Part shown: piece after piece, positions 12,104 to 28,524 of the stretch
Layout: the number at the start of each line of letters is the position of its first letter
How positions within the stretch are numbered: the first letter of the stretch is position 1
Assembly (NCBI RefSeq): GCF_002754245.1
Contig: NZ_PEEX01000001.1
Location: 4,196,001 to 4,260,000 of the forward strand
Reading direction: 5' to 3'
DNA: 64,000 bases
Source: Chryseobacterium sp. 52
GTDB taxonomy: Bacteria; Bacteroidota; Bacteroidia; Flavobacteriales; Weeksellaceae
Notes under the pieces: model-generated
The model's input: the letters and a program-made list of their open reading frames with translations, nothing else
What the model was told of the DNA's origin: nothing
The model's database searches: none
Made by a program: the position numbers and the translations under genes

Positions 12104-13873
12104 CTAATACATTTTTTCAATAATATCCGCATATTTCTTAAGAACCACATTTCTTTTAACCTTCAATGTAGGAGTAATTTCTCCAGTGTTAATGTCAAAT
12201 TCGGCAGGCATCAGTGTGAATTTTTTCACTTTTTCATAATCTGCCAGATGATCCTGAAGCTCTTTAATTTTTTCTTTATATAAGGCAACGATTTTCTCGT
12301 TTTTCACAGCCTCTTCCCAATTGGTAAAAGGGATATTGTTTTTCTTGATAAAATCCTTCAGAAATTCAAAATTCGGGACAATAAGCGCGGAAACAAACTG
12401 TCTTCCTTCTGCCACCAGCATGATCTGCTGGATAAAATTATTATTGGTCAGAAGATTCTCAATCTGTTGCGGAGCAATATACTTTCCGTTGGAAGTCTTC
12501 ATAAGATCTTTAATTCTGTCTGTAATGATCAGGTTTCCTTTATCATCAAATTTTCCTGCGTCTCCGGTTTTAAACCATCCGTCTTCCGTGAACACTTTCT
12601 GTGTTTCTTCCGGCTTATTGTAATAGCCTTTCATAATGCCATTTCCTCTGGCCTGGATCTCATCATTTTCACCGATACGCATTTCTACCCCCGGTAAAGG
12701 TTTTCCGCTGGTTCCGTGCTCAAAATGTGTCAATGGGAAAAGGGTCAGTGTAGCCGTCGTTTCTGTAAGACCATACCCTACCGTTACATGGATTCCTACA
12801 GAGTCGAAGAATTTTGTAACTTCCGGTGAAAGCGATGCGCCTCCGCAAGGTAAAAACCAAAGTCTTCCACCCATTTTATCTTTAATTTTGCTGAAAACCA
12901 ACATATCTGCAACCGATTCTTTCAGTTTTAATCCAAAAGGAACCGGTTTTTCATTTCTTCTTAATTCTGACGTCTGCCATCCTGTTGCCAACGCCCAATC
13001 GAAGATTTTTTTCTTCATCGATGAACCTTCTTCTGCTTTCTCTAAAACACCGGCATATACTTTCTGGAAAAATCTCGGCACCGCACACATCATCGTCGGT
13101 TTTACATCTTCCAGGGTTTTTGCAATATCTTTCGGGTCTTCCAGGAAATATACCCTTGCACCTCCGTAAAGGCAAAGCAGGCTCCAGCTTCTTTCGAAAA
13201 CATGGGTCAGCGGCAGAAATGCCAGTGAAAGTTCTTCTTCAAAGTTTTTAAATTTAAAAAACTCAAAGTGAGAATCAAAAGCCTTGATGAAATTTCCATG
13301 GGTAAGCATGACCCCTTTGGGAGTTCCGGTGGTTCCGGAAGTATAAATCAGTGTGGCCGTATCATCATTTTCTTTCTCGCAGATCTCAAGCTTAGAAGAT
13401 GTTTTTGCAATAAAGTCTTCCAGATAAAAACTGTTGAATTCTTTCTTGATCCAAACTGATTTTTTAGAAACAATGATGGTTTCTAACTGATTTTCTTCTT
13501 TATGTATAAGTTCGAGACATGCATCATACTGTTCCTGGCTGCCAACAAGAACCGCCTTTGCCGAGGAATCGTTGATGATATATTCTGCCTGTTCTGCATT
13601 GTTTGTGGAGTAAATAGGAACTGTAACAGCACCAATCGCCATTGAAGCCAGGTCAAAAATCATCCATTCAGAAGAGTTATCTGAATAAATAGCCACTTTA
13701 TCATTTTCCTGAATTCCTGCATTTTTCAGTGCATTTGCTGTTCTGAAAACGATTTCACCGAATTTTTTCCAGCTCAGCTCTTTCCAGGCTTCATCTTTCT
13801 TTTTAAAGCCTATCGCTGATTTTACAGGATGCTTTTCTACATTTTTAAGGATAATTGCTGCTGCAAGATTCAT
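12104..13873 (-). CDS. AMP-dependent long-chain acyl-CoA ligase
   Basis: This 589-residue adenylate-forming enzyme carries the P-loop-like motif YTSGTTGTPKG at residues 177-187, GYGLTETTA (about 365) and the hinge region GNLIITDRIKDLMKTSNGKY (about 455, broken here). It would activate fatty acids to acyl-CoA in the cytoplasm. Length and motif order match the FadD/FAA family. Its start codon overlaps the stop of the upstream epimerase gene by 4 bases (ATGA), so the two are translationally coupled. Confidence 0.92.
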   Translation of the reverse strand: MNLAAAIILKNVEKHPVKSAIGFKKKDEAWKELSWKKFGEIVFRTANALKNAGIQENDKVAIYSDNSSEWMIFDLASMAIGAVTVPIYSTNNAEQAEYIINDSSAKAVLVGSQEQYDACLELIHKEENQLETIIVSKKSVWIKKEFNSFYLEDFIAKTSSKLEICEKENDDTATLIYTSGTTGTPKGVMLTHGNFIKAFDSHFEFFKFKNFEEELSLAFLPLTHVFERSWSLLCLYGGARVYFLEDPKDIAKTLEDVKPTMMCAVPRFFQKVYAGVLEKAEEGSSMKKKIFDWALATGWQTSELRRNEKPVPFGLKLKESVADMLVFSKIKDKMGGRLWFLPCGGASLSPEVTKFFDSVGIHVTVGYGLTETTATLTLFPLTHFEHGTSGKPLPGVEMRIGENDEIQARGNGIMKGYYNKPEETQKVFTEDGWFKTGDAGKFDDKGNLIITDRIKDLMKTSNGKYIAPQQIENLLTNNNFIQQIMLVAEGRQFVSALIVPNFEFLKDFIKKNNIPFTNWEEAVKNEKIVALYKEKIKELQDHLADYEKVKKFTLMPAEFDINTGEITPTLKVKRNVVLKKYADIIEKMY

Positions 13874-14883
13874 GAATTCAGCTTTTTGTCGTTAATATAA
13901 TTGGTAAGATGAAAATCAATGCTCTCCTTTACAGGAATAAACCGGCAATCCATCTTTTCTTTAATTTTCTGGTTGGAAATAGTGTTGAGTGAGGATATAG
14001 ATTCAATATTTGATTTGGTAATGATTCTCAGTTTCGGAATCAGCCAGCCAAAAAGAATATTCGCCAGTCTTCCAAGGTTCAATTGAAATTTTGTAAGAAT
14101 TTTCGCCTCTTTCAAACCAAGTTTTGATCTAATCTGCTTTCCAAGATCTGCATATTTTTTATTTTCCGATATCAGGATAAACCGTTCTCCAAAAACATTC
14201 TTCTCCATCAGTTCGATGGAAATTGTGGCAGTATCTCTTACGTCTATATAGCTGGTTCCACCGGAAAATGTAAAACCGTTCTTTTCAAAAGTGGGGAAAA
14301 TATCTCCGCTGCTCTGCCCCCAGTTTCCGCTTCCGATGATCATTCCTGGGTTTACAATTATGGTATTCAATCCCTCGGCAGAAGCTCTCCAAACCTCCAT
14401 TTCGGCAAGGTGTTTCGAAATGGCATAGGCAGAATGTTCTTCTTTAGGATTAAATTCTGAACTCTCGTCTAATTCTCCATTTTCGTTAAAAAGATCCAAC
14501 ACGGCAATCGTACTTACGTGCAGAAATTTTTTCACATCCGAACCTTCACATGCAAACAGCAGATTTTCTGTACCCTTTACGTTGGTATGGTACATTTCTT
14601 TTTCATCATGTGGATGAAAACTTACTTTTGCGGCGCAGTGATAGACTTCATCTACCCCTTTCAATGCATTTTGCAGAGCGTCCAGATCGTCAAAATCTAC
14701 GTCTACCCATTCGATCTTATTAAAAAAATCATCAGGATTCTCCGTATAGAAAGCGTAAGAATGTCTTACATCGTTTAAATTGCTGCCCGGTCTTTTGGAA
14801 GCACGCACGTTTTTTCCTTTTTTAAGAAGTTCCAAAACAATCACCCTTCCCAGGATTCCAGTCGCACCCGTTACAAAAATCAT
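13870..14883 (-). CDS. NAD-dependent epimerase/dehydratase family protein
   Basis: This 337-residue extended short-chain dehydrogenase begins with the Rossmann motif TGATGILGR (residues 5-13) and has the catalytic YAISKHLAE (Y-x-x-x-K, about 148-156). The C-terminal part is hydrophobic-poor and unlike sugar epimerases, closer to 3-beta-HSD or dihydroflavonol-reductase-like members. Coupling with an acyl-CoA ligase by a 4-base overlap suggests a role in lipid metabolism, which is inference. No exact substrate can be assigned. Confidence 0.88.
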   Translation of the reverse strand: MIFVTGATGILGRVIVLELLKKGKNVRASKRPGSNLNDVRHSYAFYTENPDDFFNKIEWVDVDFDDLDALQNALKGVDEVYHCAAKVSFHPHDEKEMYHTNVKGTENLLFACEGSDVKKFLHVSTIAVLDLFNENGELDESSEFNPKEEHSAYAISKHLAEMEVWRASAEGLNTIIVNPGMIIGSGNWGQSSGDIFPTFEKNGFTFSGGTSYIDVRDTATISIELMEKNVFGERFILISENKKYADLGKQIRSKLGLKEAKILTKFQLNLGRLANILFGWLIPKLRIITKSNIESISSLNTISNQKIKEKMDCRFIPVKESIDFHLTNYINDKKLNS

Positions 14884-15298
14884 TAATTATTTACTTGATT
14901 ACTGACTAAAATATGACAATATTTTCTATCCGGCAATTCTTCATTTTCCAGCAATGGTTTGATGAAAAACTGCTGATGCAAATTTGCGATTTTTAAAGCA
15001 GAATTCCACTTACTTTAACCAATATTATCATTTTGACAGACTTCATCTGTAATAATCTTTAAGTGAGAATAATAACTGATAAATGAGGCTCACCCTAAAA
15101 GTGACAAAAAGATTTTTTACGTTTCAGTTATTTACGTTTAAAAGCTTTGAAAAAAGAAAATCACATCTGTTCTTTGAAAATTAGAAATTTTTATGCTGGC
15201 AACAATTTTCCGGATCAGAATTCCCCTCCTTTGGAGGGGTGGCAAATCGAAGGTTTGACGGGGTGGTCAACCTTCTTTTCTTCTAAAAATCATTCTAA
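14884..15298. other. AT-rich intergenic stretch with a dispersed repeat
   Basis: About 480 bases separate the epimerase start from the graspetide ligase stop. It holds the epimerase promoter region (no clear consensus box), a copy of a CCCCTCC / GGAGGGG repeat at 15222-15267 and the ligase terminator at 15299-15339. No convincing ORF or RNA gene was seen. Confidence 0.5.
15222..15267. repeat. CCCCTCCTTTGGAGGGGTGG dispersed repeat copy
   Basis: A short hairpin (CCCCTCC-TTT-GGAGGGG) is followed by GGCAAATCGAAGGTTTGACG and GGGTGGTC. I recall closely similar elements between genes in flavobacterial genomes. Only this copy occurs in the window, so repetition cannot be shown here. Confidence 0.5.
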
Positions 15299-15339
15299 TT
15301 AAAAACACAAAAATCACAAAAGTTTAGTTCCTTTTGTGA
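15299..15339 (-). terminator. Terminator of the graspetide operon
   Basis: TCACAAAAG (15314-15322) and CTTTTGTGA (15331-15339) form a 9-bp stem. On the reverse strand a T-rich run follows. It lies 27 bases beyond the stop of the last ATP-grasp gene. Confidence 0.7.
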
Positions 15340-15365
15340 CTTTTATCATTTAAATGTTCCGGCTA

Positions 15366-16370
15366 TTAAGCCATCACCATATTGTTTCTTCTCGGAGCCT
15401 TATCGCAGAGAACATCTGCAATACTCTTTGAAATAAGGTTTTCTTCTGTCAGGTTATCCAGCCAGAAAAATTCGCCTGCTGCATTGATCTCGATGAAATA
15501 ATATTCGTCTTCAGGGGAAACAATGATATCTATAGCCCCGTAATCTACATTATACACATCTAAAAGTTCCAGAAGCTTTCCTTCAAGATCTGCAGGAAGT
15601 TCTGTTCTTACCCACTTGGTCAAAAGATTGACCCCGTCTTTTCTCCAGTCAACTTTAGCATCTTCAGACTGCTGGGAATCGATTTCGAAAGCATATACAT
15701 CCTGCCCTACAATGGTAACACGAAGTTCTTTTTTCTTTTCAATTTTTTTCTGAAACTGCATCGGGCAGTATAATAATGAATCCAGCTCTTCAAGTTTGTC
15801 TTCTCCTACAACGTTTGTGAAAACAACACTTTCTACACCATCTTCATAGATCGCAAAACCGGTCTGCATTTTAGCCACTACATTCTGGTGCTTAAGGATG
15901 AATTGTCTGGCTTCTTCAGGATTATTCGTCAGGCAGGTTTCAGGAATTTTAAGTCCTAATTTAACCGCAATTTTCAATTGTTCTTCTTTACTGTCTAATC
16001 TTCTGTACACACCTGGTTTTCCAAGCGCATAGGCATCAACAGATTCTATAAATCCGAAAAGTGTATTCCGGATCTCCCCCATCGCTGCCCCATAGAATTT
16101 TTTATCCATCTCTTCCTTTACACCGTTTCCGATGTTATAAGCTCTTCTGTACCAAACCGCAGCAATATCATCAAGGCGGTACTGTGTATCTTTGGTTTCA
16201 AGAATGCTTACCCATTCTCCATCCTGGAAAATAGTAGACAGTTTATTGTGTATAGGATACAGGTCTACATCGAAACGGATGACCTCGCAGCCGTTTTTTT
16301 CTACGTATTCCGTTACTTTTTCGATTGAAAAATTATCTGCAGTATGCGTAATGATTAATATTTTATTCAT
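15366..16370 (-). CDS. Graspetide ATP-grasp ligase, MvdD-like
   Basis: This 334-residue ATP-grasp enzyme resembles MvdD of microviridin clusters, which closes omega-ester (lactone) rings between Thr/Ser and Asp/Glu side chains. Visible marks are VWYRRAY (about 71-77), a lysine-rich ATP-binding region, DWRKDG (about 230) and the metal-binding end DYGAIDIIV ... YYFIEINAAGEFFWLD (about 268-300). Its start overlaps the upstream ligase gene by 8 bases. It follows three precursor genes in the same direction. Which ligase makes which ring, and whether amides form, cannot be decided from sequence alone. Confidence 0.9.
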   Translation of the reverse strand: MNKILIITHTADNFSIEKVTEYVEKNGCEVIRFDVDLYPIHNKLSTIFQDGEWVSILETKDTQYRLDDIAAVWYRRAYNIGNGVKEEMDKKFYGAAMGEIRNTLFGFIESVDAYALGKPGVYRRLDSKEEQLKIAVKLGLKIPETCLTNNPEEARQFILKHQNVVAKMQTGFAIYEDGVESVVFTNVVGEDKLEELDSLLYCPMQFQKKIEKKKELRVTIVGQDVYAFEIDSQQSEDAKVDWRKDGVNLLTKWVRTELPADLEGKLLELLDVYNVDYGAIDIIVSPEDEYYFIEINAAGEFFWLDNLTEENLISKSIADVLCDKAPRRNNMVMA

Positions 16371-17319
16371 GGATATTGATTCTTTTTATAAGGTTATCGG
16401 CAATTTTTTCTGCAATGGGAAAGCCCAGTTCGTGCTGCAGCATTCCCCATTCTCCCTGTGGATTTACTTCAAGGAAATAATATTCTCCGTCTTTTCCTTT
16501 GATCATATCAATGGCTCCGATATAGAGTCCCATTTCTTTCATCATAGAAGCAAGACCGGCTTTTACATGTCCGGGCAGTTCATAAGCTGACCAGAAATAA
16601 TCTTCCTGTGCTAATCTCCAGTCTACATTCTCGCTGTTGTTAATCTTTCCGGTGAAAAAATCTCCGGCTATATAGACGATTCTTAATTCATATTCTTTAT
16701 CAACATACGGCTGGAAGATCATCGGACAGTATGTAATATCTGAAATATTCTCCAAAGTATCTTCTTCAATGATCATTGTTGAGATCAGATTTTCCCCGTT
16801 CATGGTTTTTGCCGTCAGACTGTGGAGCTTGGCCACAGCTTTTCCGTTGCAGTATTCATGAAAAAAGGCTGTAATCTTTTCTTCGTCATTTGAAAAAATA
16901 GTTTCAGGAATGGTCAAATTATTTTCTTTGGCTAATTTCAGCTGAAGCATTTTATTTCCATCGATCTTTCTTTCATTTTCATAAGGATTGATCCACGGAA
17001 TATTTTCTAAAACAGTCATCAGGTTATAGCGGAGACTTGCGTATCCGTTAAGGAATATTTTTTTGTAATCTTCATCCAGTTCTTCGGGAATGCTTATGCC
17101 CCAGGCCTTTCTGTGCCATACTCCTTTAATATCTCTGGAGTGAACTGTATTTCCGGACTCATCGGTGAGTTCAAATGAATCTTCATTGACGCTGATCTTC
17201 TGAAAGTGGTTCATACGGTCAGAATTCAATCTGAAATAGGGAATATTTTTAGTGTTTAAATATTCAAAAAAAACATCGATATTGTAGAAATCCTGTGAGT
17301 GGGTGATGCAGAGAATCAT
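16363..17319 (-). CDS. Graspetide ATP-grasp ligase, MvdC-like
   Basis: The 318-residue protein is a second ATP-grasp ligase. VWHRKAWG (about 67-74), VDWRLAQ (about 229-235) and the C-terminal GAIDMI ... YYFLEVNPQGEWGMLQ (about 268-295) match the MvdC-type ending EVNPxGEWGM. In microviridin systems MvdC closes the omega-amide between lysine and an acidic residue; all three precursors here have that lysine in KYPSD. It starts 16 bases after a perfect 12-bp hairpin, so it is probably expressed by read-through from the precursor genes. Confidence 0.9.
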   Translation of the reverse strand: MILCITHSQDFYNIDVFFEYLNTKNIPYFRLNSDRMNHFQKISVNEDSFELTDESGNTVHSRDIKGVWHRKAWGISIPEELDEDYKKIFLNGYASLRYNLMTVLENIPWINPYENERKIDGNKMLQLKLAKENNLTIPETIFSNDEEKITAFFHEYCNGKAVAKLHSLTAKTMNGENLISTMIIEEDTLENISDITYCPMIFQPYVDKEYELRIVYIAGDFFTGKINNSENVDWRLAQEDYFWSAYELPGHVKAGLASMMKEMGLYIGAIDMIKGKDGEYYFLEVNPQGEWGMLQHELGFPIAEKIADNLIKRINIHE

Positions 17320-17334
17320 TTGCCTGTTTTTATT

Positions 17335-17365
17335 AAAAAAGGAAACTTAATGGTAAGTTTCCTTT
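17335..17365 (-). terminator. Hairpin terminator/attenuator between precursor and ligase genes
   Basis: AAAGGAAACTTA (17338-17349) and TAAGTTTCCTTT (17354-17365) make a perfect 12-bp stem with a 4-base loop. On the reverse strand six T residues follow directly. It lies 37 bases after the last precursor stop and 15 bases before the first ligase start, with no clear promoter between. This fits partial termination. Confidence 0.85.
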
Positions 17366-17402
17366 GATATGATTGTATTAATACGGTTTGTATTTTATTG
17401 AT

Positions 17403-17630
17403 CTAGTCTACCGGAACAGATGGAAAGTCATCATCACCGTCAGATGGATATTTCATTGTTTGCATCAGATCATCCTGAGGAGAAGTTACATTATCCACGA
17501 ATGGCTTTGTAATCACATCTCTTTCAGGAATTGTGATGTTACCACCTCCTTTTACAGTTTCAGGATCTTTAAGTTGCTTTTCTAAGAATGACGCAAAAAA
17601 CGGCTTCTTTTTTGAATTTTTGTCTTTCAT
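17403..17630 (-). CDS. Graspetide precursor peptide 1 (microviridin-like, multicore)
   Basis: The 75-residue peptide has a basic N-terminus, the leader helix PFFASFLEKQ at residues 10-19 (the counterpart of the microviridin PFFARFLE motif that ATP-grasp ligases recognise) and GGG at 28-30. After that come three T-x-P-x-x-D hexads starting at T33, T41 and T49, exactly eight residues apart. The C-terminal core is TMKYPSDGDDD (58-68) with a short FPSVPVD tail. The hexads are candidates for single Thr-Asp ester rings and the C-terminal core for a microviridin-type ring system. It is the third and last precursor gene in transcription order. Confidence 0.9.
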   Translation of the reverse strand: MKDKNSKKKPFFASFLEKQLKDPETVKGGGNITIPERDVITKPFVDNVTSPQDDLMQTMKYPSDGDDDFPSVPVD

Positions 17631-17683
17631 AATAATTTAGTTTTGGTTAAAAATATGTTTGTAATTTCTTATTCGATAGAAAT

Positions 17684-17920
17684 TTAAATAACATCCTCAT
17701 CACCGTCAGATGGGTACTTCATAGTAACCAAAAGATCCTTGTTTGGGCTGGTCACATGATCAAAAATCTGTGCTGTAATATTATCCCTTGAAGGTAAAGT
17801 AACGATGTCGTTGTCAGTACTTGTAATGATTCCGCCTCCCTGAATGGTTTCCGGATCTTTGATTTGCTTTTCTAAAAATGAAGCAAAAAAAGGTTTCTTT
17901 TTTGAATTTTCGTCTTTCAT
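17684..17920 (-). CDS. Graspetide precursor peptide 2 (microviridin-like, multicore)
   Basis: The 78-residue peptide shares the leader with its neighbours: PFFASFLEKQ at 10-19, KDPETIQGGG at 21-30. Four hexads with Thr first and Asp sixth start at T33, T41, T49 and T57, period eight; those at 41 and 57 have proline in third place. The C-terminal core is TMKYPSDGDED (66-76) with only two residues after it. It lies 53 bases upstream of precursor 1 in the same transcript. Single-ring and multi-ring products are predicted, by analogy with microviridin and chryseoviridin chemistry. Confidence 0.9.
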   Translation of the reverse strand: MKDENSKKKPFFASFLEKQIKDPETIQGGGIITSTDNDIVTLPSRDNITAQIFDHVTSPNKDLLVTMKYPSDGDEDVI

Positions 17921-17958
17921 GGTAATTGAGTTAGATTAATTTTTATTAGTAATTGTGA

Positions 17959-18204
17959 TTATAATATTTCTAATTCTCCGGATTCATCACTGTCAGAAGG
18001 ATACTTCATTGTTACAATCTGATCTCTTGAAGGCAATGTTGCATTGTCAAGAAAAGGTGATGTTGTCACAGTATCTCTTACCGGTACGGTAAGAACATCC
18101 GTAGTAGGTGTTGTAATTCCTCCTCCCTGAATGGTTTCCGGATCCTGAATTTGTTTCTCTAAAAATGAAGCAAAGAAAGGTTTTTTTGAGTTTTTCTTTT
18201 CCAT
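17959..18204 (-). CDS. Graspetide precursor peptide 3 (microviridin-like, multicore)
   Basis: The 81-residue peptide is first in transcription order. PFFASFLEKQ is at 9-18 and GGG at 27-29. Hexads T-x-P-x-x-D start at T31, T39, T48 and T56; all have proline in third place. The core TMKYPSDSDES (65-75) differs from the other two in the acidic positions and carries a longer tail GELEIL. The leader is almost invariant among the three peptides while the core segments vary, as expected for gene duplicates diversified in the product region. The upstream region holds the likely operon promoter. Confidence 0.9.
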   Translation of the reverse strand: MEKKNSKKPFFASFLEKQIQDPETIQGGGITTPTTDVLTVPVRDTVTTSPFLDNATLPSRDQIVTMKYPSDSDESGELEIL

Positions 18205-18330
18205 AAGTTAATATATTTAGTTTTTATGTAAAACTAAAGTACAAAAAATTTCAACACGTGGGGAAATATTACTCCATTTTAAGAAAATTTTAACTAATCC
18301 AATAAAAAAGACTGAATAAAATTAATCTAA

Positions 18331-19101
18331 TCATAAAAACTCCTTAACAACTTTCGCAAAATCAACCGGATTTTCAGCCTGAACCCAATGTCCTGCATTT
18401 TTTACGGTGACTATTTTTGCTTTTGGAAACTGCTGTTTGATCCCATATTCATCCTGAGGAAGGATATAATTTGACTTTGCCCCGGCAATAAATAAAGAAT
18501 CTCCCTCAAATACACCAAATTTTACGGCATTAGAAACAAACTCGTTATATTTTTCAGATAAGGTTTTAAGATTAAATCTCCAGTTCAGTTTTTTCTGATC
18601 ATCCCAGTATAAGTTCTTTGCTAAAAACTGGATCGTAGATTTCTCTGGAATATACTGACTCAATACTTCTTCTACCTCTCCTCTTGAATTGACAGTATTA
18701 AAATCTACTGTTTCGAGTGCTTTAATAATTCCCTGGTGATGGGGAGGATAAGCTTTTGGTGAGATATCTACAACAATTAGTTTTTCTACTCTTTCCTGAT
18801 ATTTTAACGCAAACTGCATCACTGCTTTTCCGCCTAAAGAATGTCCTAAAACATGGGCTTTCTGAATCCCGTAATGATCCATATACCGGGCTATATCATC
18901 AGCCAGATCATCGTGGGACATACTTTCTGAATGAAAGCTTCTTCCGTGATTTCTAAGGTCAATAAGATGTACGGGAAGGTATTCCCCTAAATCTTTTCCA
19001 AAGCTCCCCCAGTTGTCAAGCATTCCGAAAAGTCCGTGAAATACAAGAAGTGGCGTATTCGTAAGATTTTCGCCAAATATTTTTGAATTTAAAATTTCCA
19101 T
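18331..19101 (-). CDS. Alpha/beta hydrolase, YbfF-like esterase
   Basis: This 256-residue hydrolase has the oxyanion-hole segment FHGLFG (21-26), the nucleophile elbow GHSLGG at 86-91 (Ser88) and a C-terminal catalytic histidine in NAGHWVQAENP (about 237). The pattern and length match YbfF-type acyl-CoA/ester hydrolases. There is no signal peptide, so it acts in the cytoplasm. It lies upstream of the graspetide operon in the same direction but is separated by 126 bases, so a link is unlikely. The natural substrate is unknown. Confidence 0.9.
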   Translation of the reverse strand: MEILNSKIFGENLTNTPLLVFHGLFGMLDNWGSFGKDLGEYLPVHLIDLRNHGRSFHSESMSHDDLADDIARYMDHYGIQKAHVLGHSLGGKAVMQFALKYQERVEKLIVVDISPKAYPPHHQGIIKALETVDFNTVNSRGEVEEVLSQYIPEKSTIQFLAKNLYWDDQKKLNWRFNLKTLSEKYNEFVSNAVKFGVFEGDSLFIAGAKSNYILPQDEYGIKQQFPKAKIVTVKNAGHWVQAENPVDFAKVVKEFL

Positions 19102-28285: not shown

Positions 28286-28305
28286 CACTGAAAAAGTTTA
28301 ACGCT

Positions 28306-28473
28306 TATTCATCACAGAAACTGGTTCTGCTTACCGCAGATTAAAAGGGAACCGTGTGAAAATCACGGACTGTCGCGCAACTGTAAGTAACTGAAGTCTT
28401 TATCAAGAATCCACTGTGCAGGGCACGGGAAGGAGATAAAAGATGTTACAAGTCAGGAGACCTGCCTATTTCT
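28306..28473 (+). promoter_or_regulatory. Cobalamin (vitamin B12) riboswitch
   Basis: The conserved blocks occur in order: AAAAGGGAACCGTGTGAAAA (28343-28362), TCACGGACTG, CGCGCAACTGTAAGT (28375-28388), GCACGGGAAGG and finally AGTCAGGAGACCTGCC (28451-28466), the part that pairs with the L5 loop. This is the B12-box architecture of the cobalamin riboswitch class. A hairpin (CAGGAAT / ATTCCTG, 28525-28545) follows and may be the expression platform. The gene downstream is a thioesterase, not the usual TonB receptor. Confidence 0.9.
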
Positions 28474-28524
28474 TTAAACAAGAAACTTTCGCGATTTGAA
28501 GTTTATTGATCTGATGGACTGCTT

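Follow-up and report, generated by a model that had tools for sequence, protein, structure and literature searches.

The window, that is, the whole 64-kb stretch of DNA analysed here, contains a minus-strand gene cluster at 15366–18204, in which three precursor genes are followed by genes encoding an MvdC-like and an MvdD-like ATP-grasp ligase (Table 1). Open reading frames and family models confirmed the preliminary description of three peptides with a PFFASFLEKQ leader and two such ligases on the same strand. Each precursor contains this leader, a GGG motif and a single TMKYPSD, and possesses both the leader motif PFFA[S/R]FL and the C-terminal core TxKxPSDxD[DE], a motif taken from PMC8939145. 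The three precursors scored 70.7–72.6 bits against the NCBIfam microviridin/marinostatin precursor model (cut-off 26) and 33.7–36.1 bits against Pfam Inhibitor_I10 (cut-off 21). The MvdD-like ligase CdnC reached 482 bits against TIGR04184 (MvdD, cut-off 475), and its best match among solved structures is CdnC 7mgv (625.8 bits). Encoded side by side with it, the MvdC-like CdnB scored 405 bits against TIGR04185 (MvdC), just under the cut-off of 425 for what is still its best family, and its best solved structure is AMdnB 7m4s (182.7 bits). A genome-wide profile search with NF033738 and PF21068 returned only these three precursors and two ligases above the cut-offs; a third ATP-grasp protein of the genome remained below, at 24.7 bits against 27. 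At the gathering threshold, the only Rfam match in the whole window was a cobalamin riboswitch at 28305–28483. A plasmid or phage origin was rejected, given no DNA match to the window in either a plasmid or a phage collection, from which records very near the window may be absent.

Table 1. Features of the gene cluster and its flanks
Feature	Position	Strand	Description
Alpha/beta hydrolase, flank	18331..19101	-	also flanks the published chryseoviridin locus
Conserved upstream box GTTAAAATTTTCTTAA	18279..18294	-	
-7-like element TACTTTAG	18234..18241	-	
Precursor A, 81 aa	17959..18204	-	PFFASFLEKQ leader, GGG, four T-x4-D modules, TMKYPSDSDE
Precursor B, 78 aa	17684..17920	-	four T-x4-D modules, then TMKYPSDGDE
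Precursor C, 75 aa	17403..17630	-	three T-x4-D modules, then TMKYPSDGDD
Terminator-like hairpin and T-run, 12-bp stem, 4-nt loop	17335..17365	-	between precursor C and cdnB
cdnB, MvdC-like ATP-grasp ligase, 318 aa	16363..17319	-	predicted Lys-Asp/Glu lactam former
cdnC, MvdD-like ATP-grasp ligase, 334 aa	15366..16370	-	predicted omega-ester former; 7mgv CdnC match
Terminator-like hairpin 3' of cdnC	15307..15346	-	listed by generic terminator scan
NAD-dependent epimerase, flank	13870..14883	-	also flanks the published chryseoviridin locus

Microviridins carry the same leader motif and a TxKYPSD core, and most of them are single-core. The ligase pair is homologous to the microviridin-type ligases with solved structures (5ig8, 5ig9, 7m4s), whereas the upstream T-x4-D modules distinguish the present precursors from microviridin-type systems. 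PMC8939145 likewise gives the leader motif as that of microviridins, and its section 8 follows, in 47 species chosen as related to C. gregarium, a locus that combines CdnB and CdnC with several precursors and has the same two flanks; PMC8151938 mentions four Chryseobacterium genomes that share a conserved microviridin cluster. Chryseoviridins had indeed been reported from this genus, as stated at the outset, and the suggested comparison with the published cluster yielded agreement in leader, core, ligase pair and flanks. The assignment to a microviridin-like omega-ester system, more specifically to a chryseoviridin locus, is supported by the 7mgv match of CdnC and by gene content and flanks as in section 8 of PMC8939145. 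Judged from sequence, we put the probability that the locus is a chryseoviridin-type graspetide operon with a ring-forming role at about 0.9. The C. gregarium cluster (CdnA/CdnB/CdnC, 7mgv; locus L077) shares with it the leader, GG motif, T-x4-D modules, TxKYPSDxD[DE] core, two ligases and hairpin, with 269/334 residues of CdnC and 240/318 of CdnB identical in a gapless comparison; it differs in having four precursors instead of three, and in their sequences. Closer Chryseobacterium loci (L007–L022) have the same operon with three or four precursors each and a CdnC best-segment identity of 94%–97%, but their nearest precursors are 4–5 residues off those here.

A scan with CdnC revealed 92 related stretches, the best 80 of which were kept; they come from Chryseobacterium, its metagenome-assembled genomes (MAGs) and one Weeksellaceae MAG. 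CdnC is carried by 142 of the 173 genomes of the genus searched, and the precursor model matched 125 of 296 sampled genomes of the family, all in one of 33 genera. The high novelty first attributed to the cluster was therefore not borne out: this kind of cluster is published and common in the genus, and the present one is one more chryseoviridin locus. Its proposed value as a candidate source of new compounds holds in a narrow sense. None of the three precursors is identical to any from 77 other loci (of the best 80 of 92), and the nearest ones elsewhere differ by 5, 5 and 4 residues; by sequence, the three are new variants and not a new class. The cluster is useful for comparing core variants.

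The precursors had also been described as multicore. Repeated units do exist, but they are the upstream six-residue T-x4-D modules (four, four and three), with TMKYPSD occurring once per precursor. Among 183 precursors from 78 loci, T/S is followed by D/E at offset five 627 times, compared with an average of 177 after shuffling. A weaker enrichment is also seen at offset four (331 versus 184 in shuffles), which we put down to doubled T/S. In total 598 modules were detected, 586 of six and 12 of five residues, separated from the next unit by 2 or 3 residues save for six spacers of 4; these size and spacing counts are partly given by construction, since the finder accepts only five- or six-residue modules and gaps of 1–4. 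One precursor has no module and two have a single one. The number 183 is a lower bound, as the finder requires a leader match and an ATG; one precursor of the C. gregarium locus was missed and added by hand, and two 43-aa leader-only open reading frames (L072, L073) were excluded.

Omega-ester ring chemistry is known from work on CdnC and the microviridins. By analogy, we infer that CdnC binds the conserved leader and would close one six-residue omega-ester ring per T-x4-D module, as well as two esters within the C-terminal TMKYPSDxD core, in which CdnB would join Lys to Asp/Glu as a lactam. Core position 3 is Lys in 178 of the 183 precursors, all 178 with Asp or Glu at position 10; the other five have Arg, each with Ala or Ser at position 10, and all belong to one clade of loci, so that they may reflect a single event. 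That the Lys and the position-10 acid change together in 183/183 precursors favours a Lys–acid lactam, the job expected of CdnB. Alternatively, CdnC closes all the rings alone, with CdnB idle and ester-only products, in keeping with the score of CdnB under the MvdC cut-off. We consider this improbable given the same co-change of Lys and its predicted partner, and given that cdnB is uninterrupted in this genome and evolves under purifying selection, with dN/dS of about 0.1 or less against close relatives in the four pairs compared (likewise for cdnC in five pairs).

For leader removal and export, we propose that an exporter containing a C39 peptidase domain and encoded outside the cluster would cut after the GG motif and secrete chains of small rings, probably acting as serine-protease inhibitors. 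PMC8939145 states that the enzyme cleaving graspetides is unknown, although, according to its Table 1, graspetide ligases in general most often have C39 peptidase/ABC transporters next to them. In 8 of the 78 loci (L078–L085, within the best 80 of 92), each with one short precursor, a C39 exporter adjoins cdnC; it comprises 718 aa with a C39-like signature, starts 7–10 positions past the cdnC stop, and occurs in 8 of 173 genomes at 78%–100% identity. These eight loci point to the enzyme class that may cleave the leader here. The genome under study encodes two C39 exporters, both unlinked to the cluster, at about 42140 and 3641300 on contig C1: one neighbours an apparent HlyD-like protein and three small GG-leader peptides, and one neighbours apparent lanthipeptide enzymes (all named by eye). 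Orthology of the joined exporter to these two was dropped, as it shares only 40%–47% identity with them. An exporter is present in 141 of 142 cdnC-positive and 27 of 31 cdnC-negative genomes (Fisher p 0.004), a weak association that ignores phylogeny. We lean towards cleavage and export in trans by one of the two unlinked exporters.

Between the last precursor gene and cdnB lies a hairpin, AAAGGAAACTTA-loop-TAAGTTTCCTTT, followed by a T-run (fold z -5.4), so that a U-run would directly follow the stem, as in an attenuator between precursor and enzyme genes. Its exact stem has a single site in this genome. Across 78 loci, namely the window and 77 of the best 80 of the 92 CdnC-related stretches, the hairpin was found by a variant-tolerant pattern in all 78 and with the exact stem in 72. 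The three stretches left out are L023, whose contig ends in cdnC, and L042 and L051, in which cdnB was not called automatically. By eye, cdnB is visible in both of the latter; in L042 a precursor gene looks frameshifted and cdnB looks interrupted.

In these 78 loci, 14 of 18 inner-stem columns are invariant, compared with 0 of 21 fourfold sites of cdnB. Over 72 distinct alignment rows, a set defined separately from the loci with the exact stem, 98.5% of 864 cells are paired, and both-side changes occur in 27 cells, at two outer pairs. None of 500 shuffles reached the paired fraction, the both-side changes or the covariation score of 0.141; however, counts of doubly changed pairs and of pair types are at shuffle level (406/500), sliding the alignment by +1 or +2 gives covariation scores almost as high (0.127 and 0.134), and the relatedness of the loci inflates all of these figures. 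Covariation is modest, and sequence conservation is the strong signal. As a control, terminator-like hairpins 3' of cdnC were found in 60 of 78 loci; with the same finder, 74 of 78 gaps before cdnB gave the internal hairpin, whereas 107 precursor–precursor gaps gave none. A generic terminator consensus scan did not list the internal hairpin, in our reading because the stem takes up part of the T-run, and no known RNA family was found there in Rfam at the gathering threshold.

We propose that one promoter would drive the three precursors, that the hairpin would end most transcripts after the last of them, and that the ligases would be made by read-through. Upstream of the precursors, the conserved box and the -7-like element are 51–53 nt apart, start to start, in 67 of the 78 cluster loci (of the best 80 of 92). 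Only 12–19 nt separate the end of the T-run from the cdnB start in the 78 loci, leaving little room for a separate promoter, so that ligase expression probably needs read-through. Partial termination is the role of the hairpin that we favour, with some reserve. The hairpin could instead serve to process the precursor message or to stabilise its 3' end, without acting as an attenuator, a reading that we regard as rather unlikely. The stem is conserved far beyond the need of a terminator, as the invariant inner columns indicate, in contrast to the hairpins after cdnC, which have 51 distinct sequences; however, a U-run directly after the stem is the anatomy of an intrinsic terminator, and the two roles can coexist. 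A DNA operator for a dimeric regulator, to which an inverted repeat with conserved half-sites would be suited, is very improbable, given that the loop varies from 3 to 7 nt across loci and that most inner-stem changes retain a G-U pair, relevant only in RNA; the innermost pair is broken in three sequences.

The arrangement has a parallel in lasso-peptide clusters, in which, according to PMC5974421, a terminator-like inverted repeat separates the precursor gene from those of the enzymes; these clusters belong to another peptide class, whereas here the stem sequence is conserved and can outlive the genes. No mention of the internal hairpin was found in the titles and abstract openings listed by literature searches on graspetides, microviridins and Chryseobacterium, and the main text of PMC8939145 contains neither 'terminator', 'promoter' nor 'intergenic', with 'hairpin' solely in a reference. 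As far as searched, a conserved hairpin between the peptide and enzyme genes looks new, and so do its persistence with the promoter in ligase-less relatives, the joint change of core Lys and position-10 acid, and the C39 exporter adjoining eight of the 78 loci. Partial termination offers a testable account of how the dose of precursor to ligase is set in a graspetide operon, and makes the hairpin an element to watch when such clusters are expressed. What deserves follow-up, and matters more than the cluster itself, is the hairpin together with its persistence where the genes are missing.

A covariance model of the hairpin matched 155 of 173 genomes, comprising all 142 cdnC-positive and 13 of 31 cdnC-negative ones (compared by eye). 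In 16 of 17 genomes compared by coordinates, the match lies 949–956 nt from cdnC; in the remaining one, it is 1131 nt away and the cdnC match is partial. The exact pattern, found in 130 of 173 genomes (0 in all rows of the reversed-sequence control), had suggested a mark exclusive to the cluster, which was refuted by variant stems in ligase-less genomes. Twenty-nine of these were inspected, the 31 cdnC-negative genomes minus the incomplete, fragmented G312 and G316. The hydrolase and epimerase adjoin each other in all 29, and in 13 the hairpin was found between them by pattern. These 13 and the 13 of the covariance model have ten genomes in common; three pattern-positive genomes fall below the model threshold, and the other three of the model are the two fragmented genomes and L100. 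Since the hairpin is also kept in 13 of 29 ligase-less genomes, balancing the ligase dose is not its only role.

All 13 hairpin-keeping ligase-less genomes also have the box and the -7-like element, at 51–52 nt, whereas among the remaining 16 a single genome has the pair, at 49 nt. A tree of 107 hydrolase sequences, many deep nodes of which are weak, places the 13 hairpin-keepers in two clades, of 6 (support 1.0) and 7 (support 0.999); the second groups with cluster-bearing loci to the exclusion of the first (node support 0.915). A short RNA might have a function there, or the frame might be reused for another purpose. It is conceivable, although we think it doubtful, that selection acts on promoter and hairpin as a transcription unit of their own, whose product would be a short RNA or, in cluster-bearing species, a regulatory RNA derived from the 3'-UTR; this unit would have survived the loss of the peptide and ligase genes on two or more occasions. 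If true, the graspetide operon would be just one cargo of this unit.

That promoter and hairpin are instead functionless relics of gene loss is a substantial possibility, somewhat short of even odds. No open reading frame common to the ligase-less frames was seen between promoter and hairpin, and one further ligase-less locus, L100, retains both promoter elements while the pattern detects no hairpin there, as decay would produce. Against relics, promoter and hairpin are conserved above the fourfold sites of the flanking genes in both clades and the middle is not, and transcript start and end seem to be maintained without conserved content, a case of their apparent conservation after gene loss. 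With segment borders set after the alignments had been seen, identities in the first and second clade are 0.68 and 0.74 at flanking-gene fourfold sites and 0.69 and 0.66 in the middle, compared with 0.86 and 0.89 in the promoter and 0.93 and 0.89 in the 3' box plus hairpin.

In the precursors of five loci (L053, L062, L066, L067 and L076), the core Lys is replaced by Arg and its acid partner, with which it forms the predicted lactam pair of the MvdC-like ligase CdnB, by Ala or Ser. Such precursors would carry a core with esters only. At locus L093 of another genome searched, G225, a 46-residue precursor displays the core TTKYPSD without the six-residue mini-ring modules. It lies near the contig end and is followed by the same terminator-like hairpin as that between the last precursor and cdnB in the chryseoviridin-type cluster. 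Given that a second contig ends alike, this arrangement may reflect a repeated sequence or an artefact of assembly. Two 43-residue leader-only ORFs, at L072 and L073, stop shortly after the GG motif and lack a TxKYPSD core.

In the genome holding the window, a third protein of the ATP-grasp type (L006, about 306 residues) scores under the MvdD-domain cut-off. Beside it lie a 307-residue protein and a 114-residue ORF similar to its C-terminal part. In the same genome, three short GG-leader peptides adjoin a C39 exporter at L098, apparently a bacteriocin-type export locus.

In the intergenic region upstream of the flanking epimerase gene, a GCAAATTTGC-like palindrome was recognized by eye; the window carries it, as do most of the inspected loci that have both flanking genes but lack the cluster.

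Coordinates of the additional features
Feature	Location	Strand	Score (bits)
Cobalamin riboswitch aptamer	window 28305-28483	+	111.8
Palindrome upstream of epimerase	window near 14980		
Third ATP-grasp protein	L006, G000:C1:1538505-1538825		
Short precursor	L093 3477-3617		
Leader-only ORF	L072 5402-5533		
Leader-only ORF	L073 5381-5512		
GG-leader peptides and C39 exporter	L098 5449-9939
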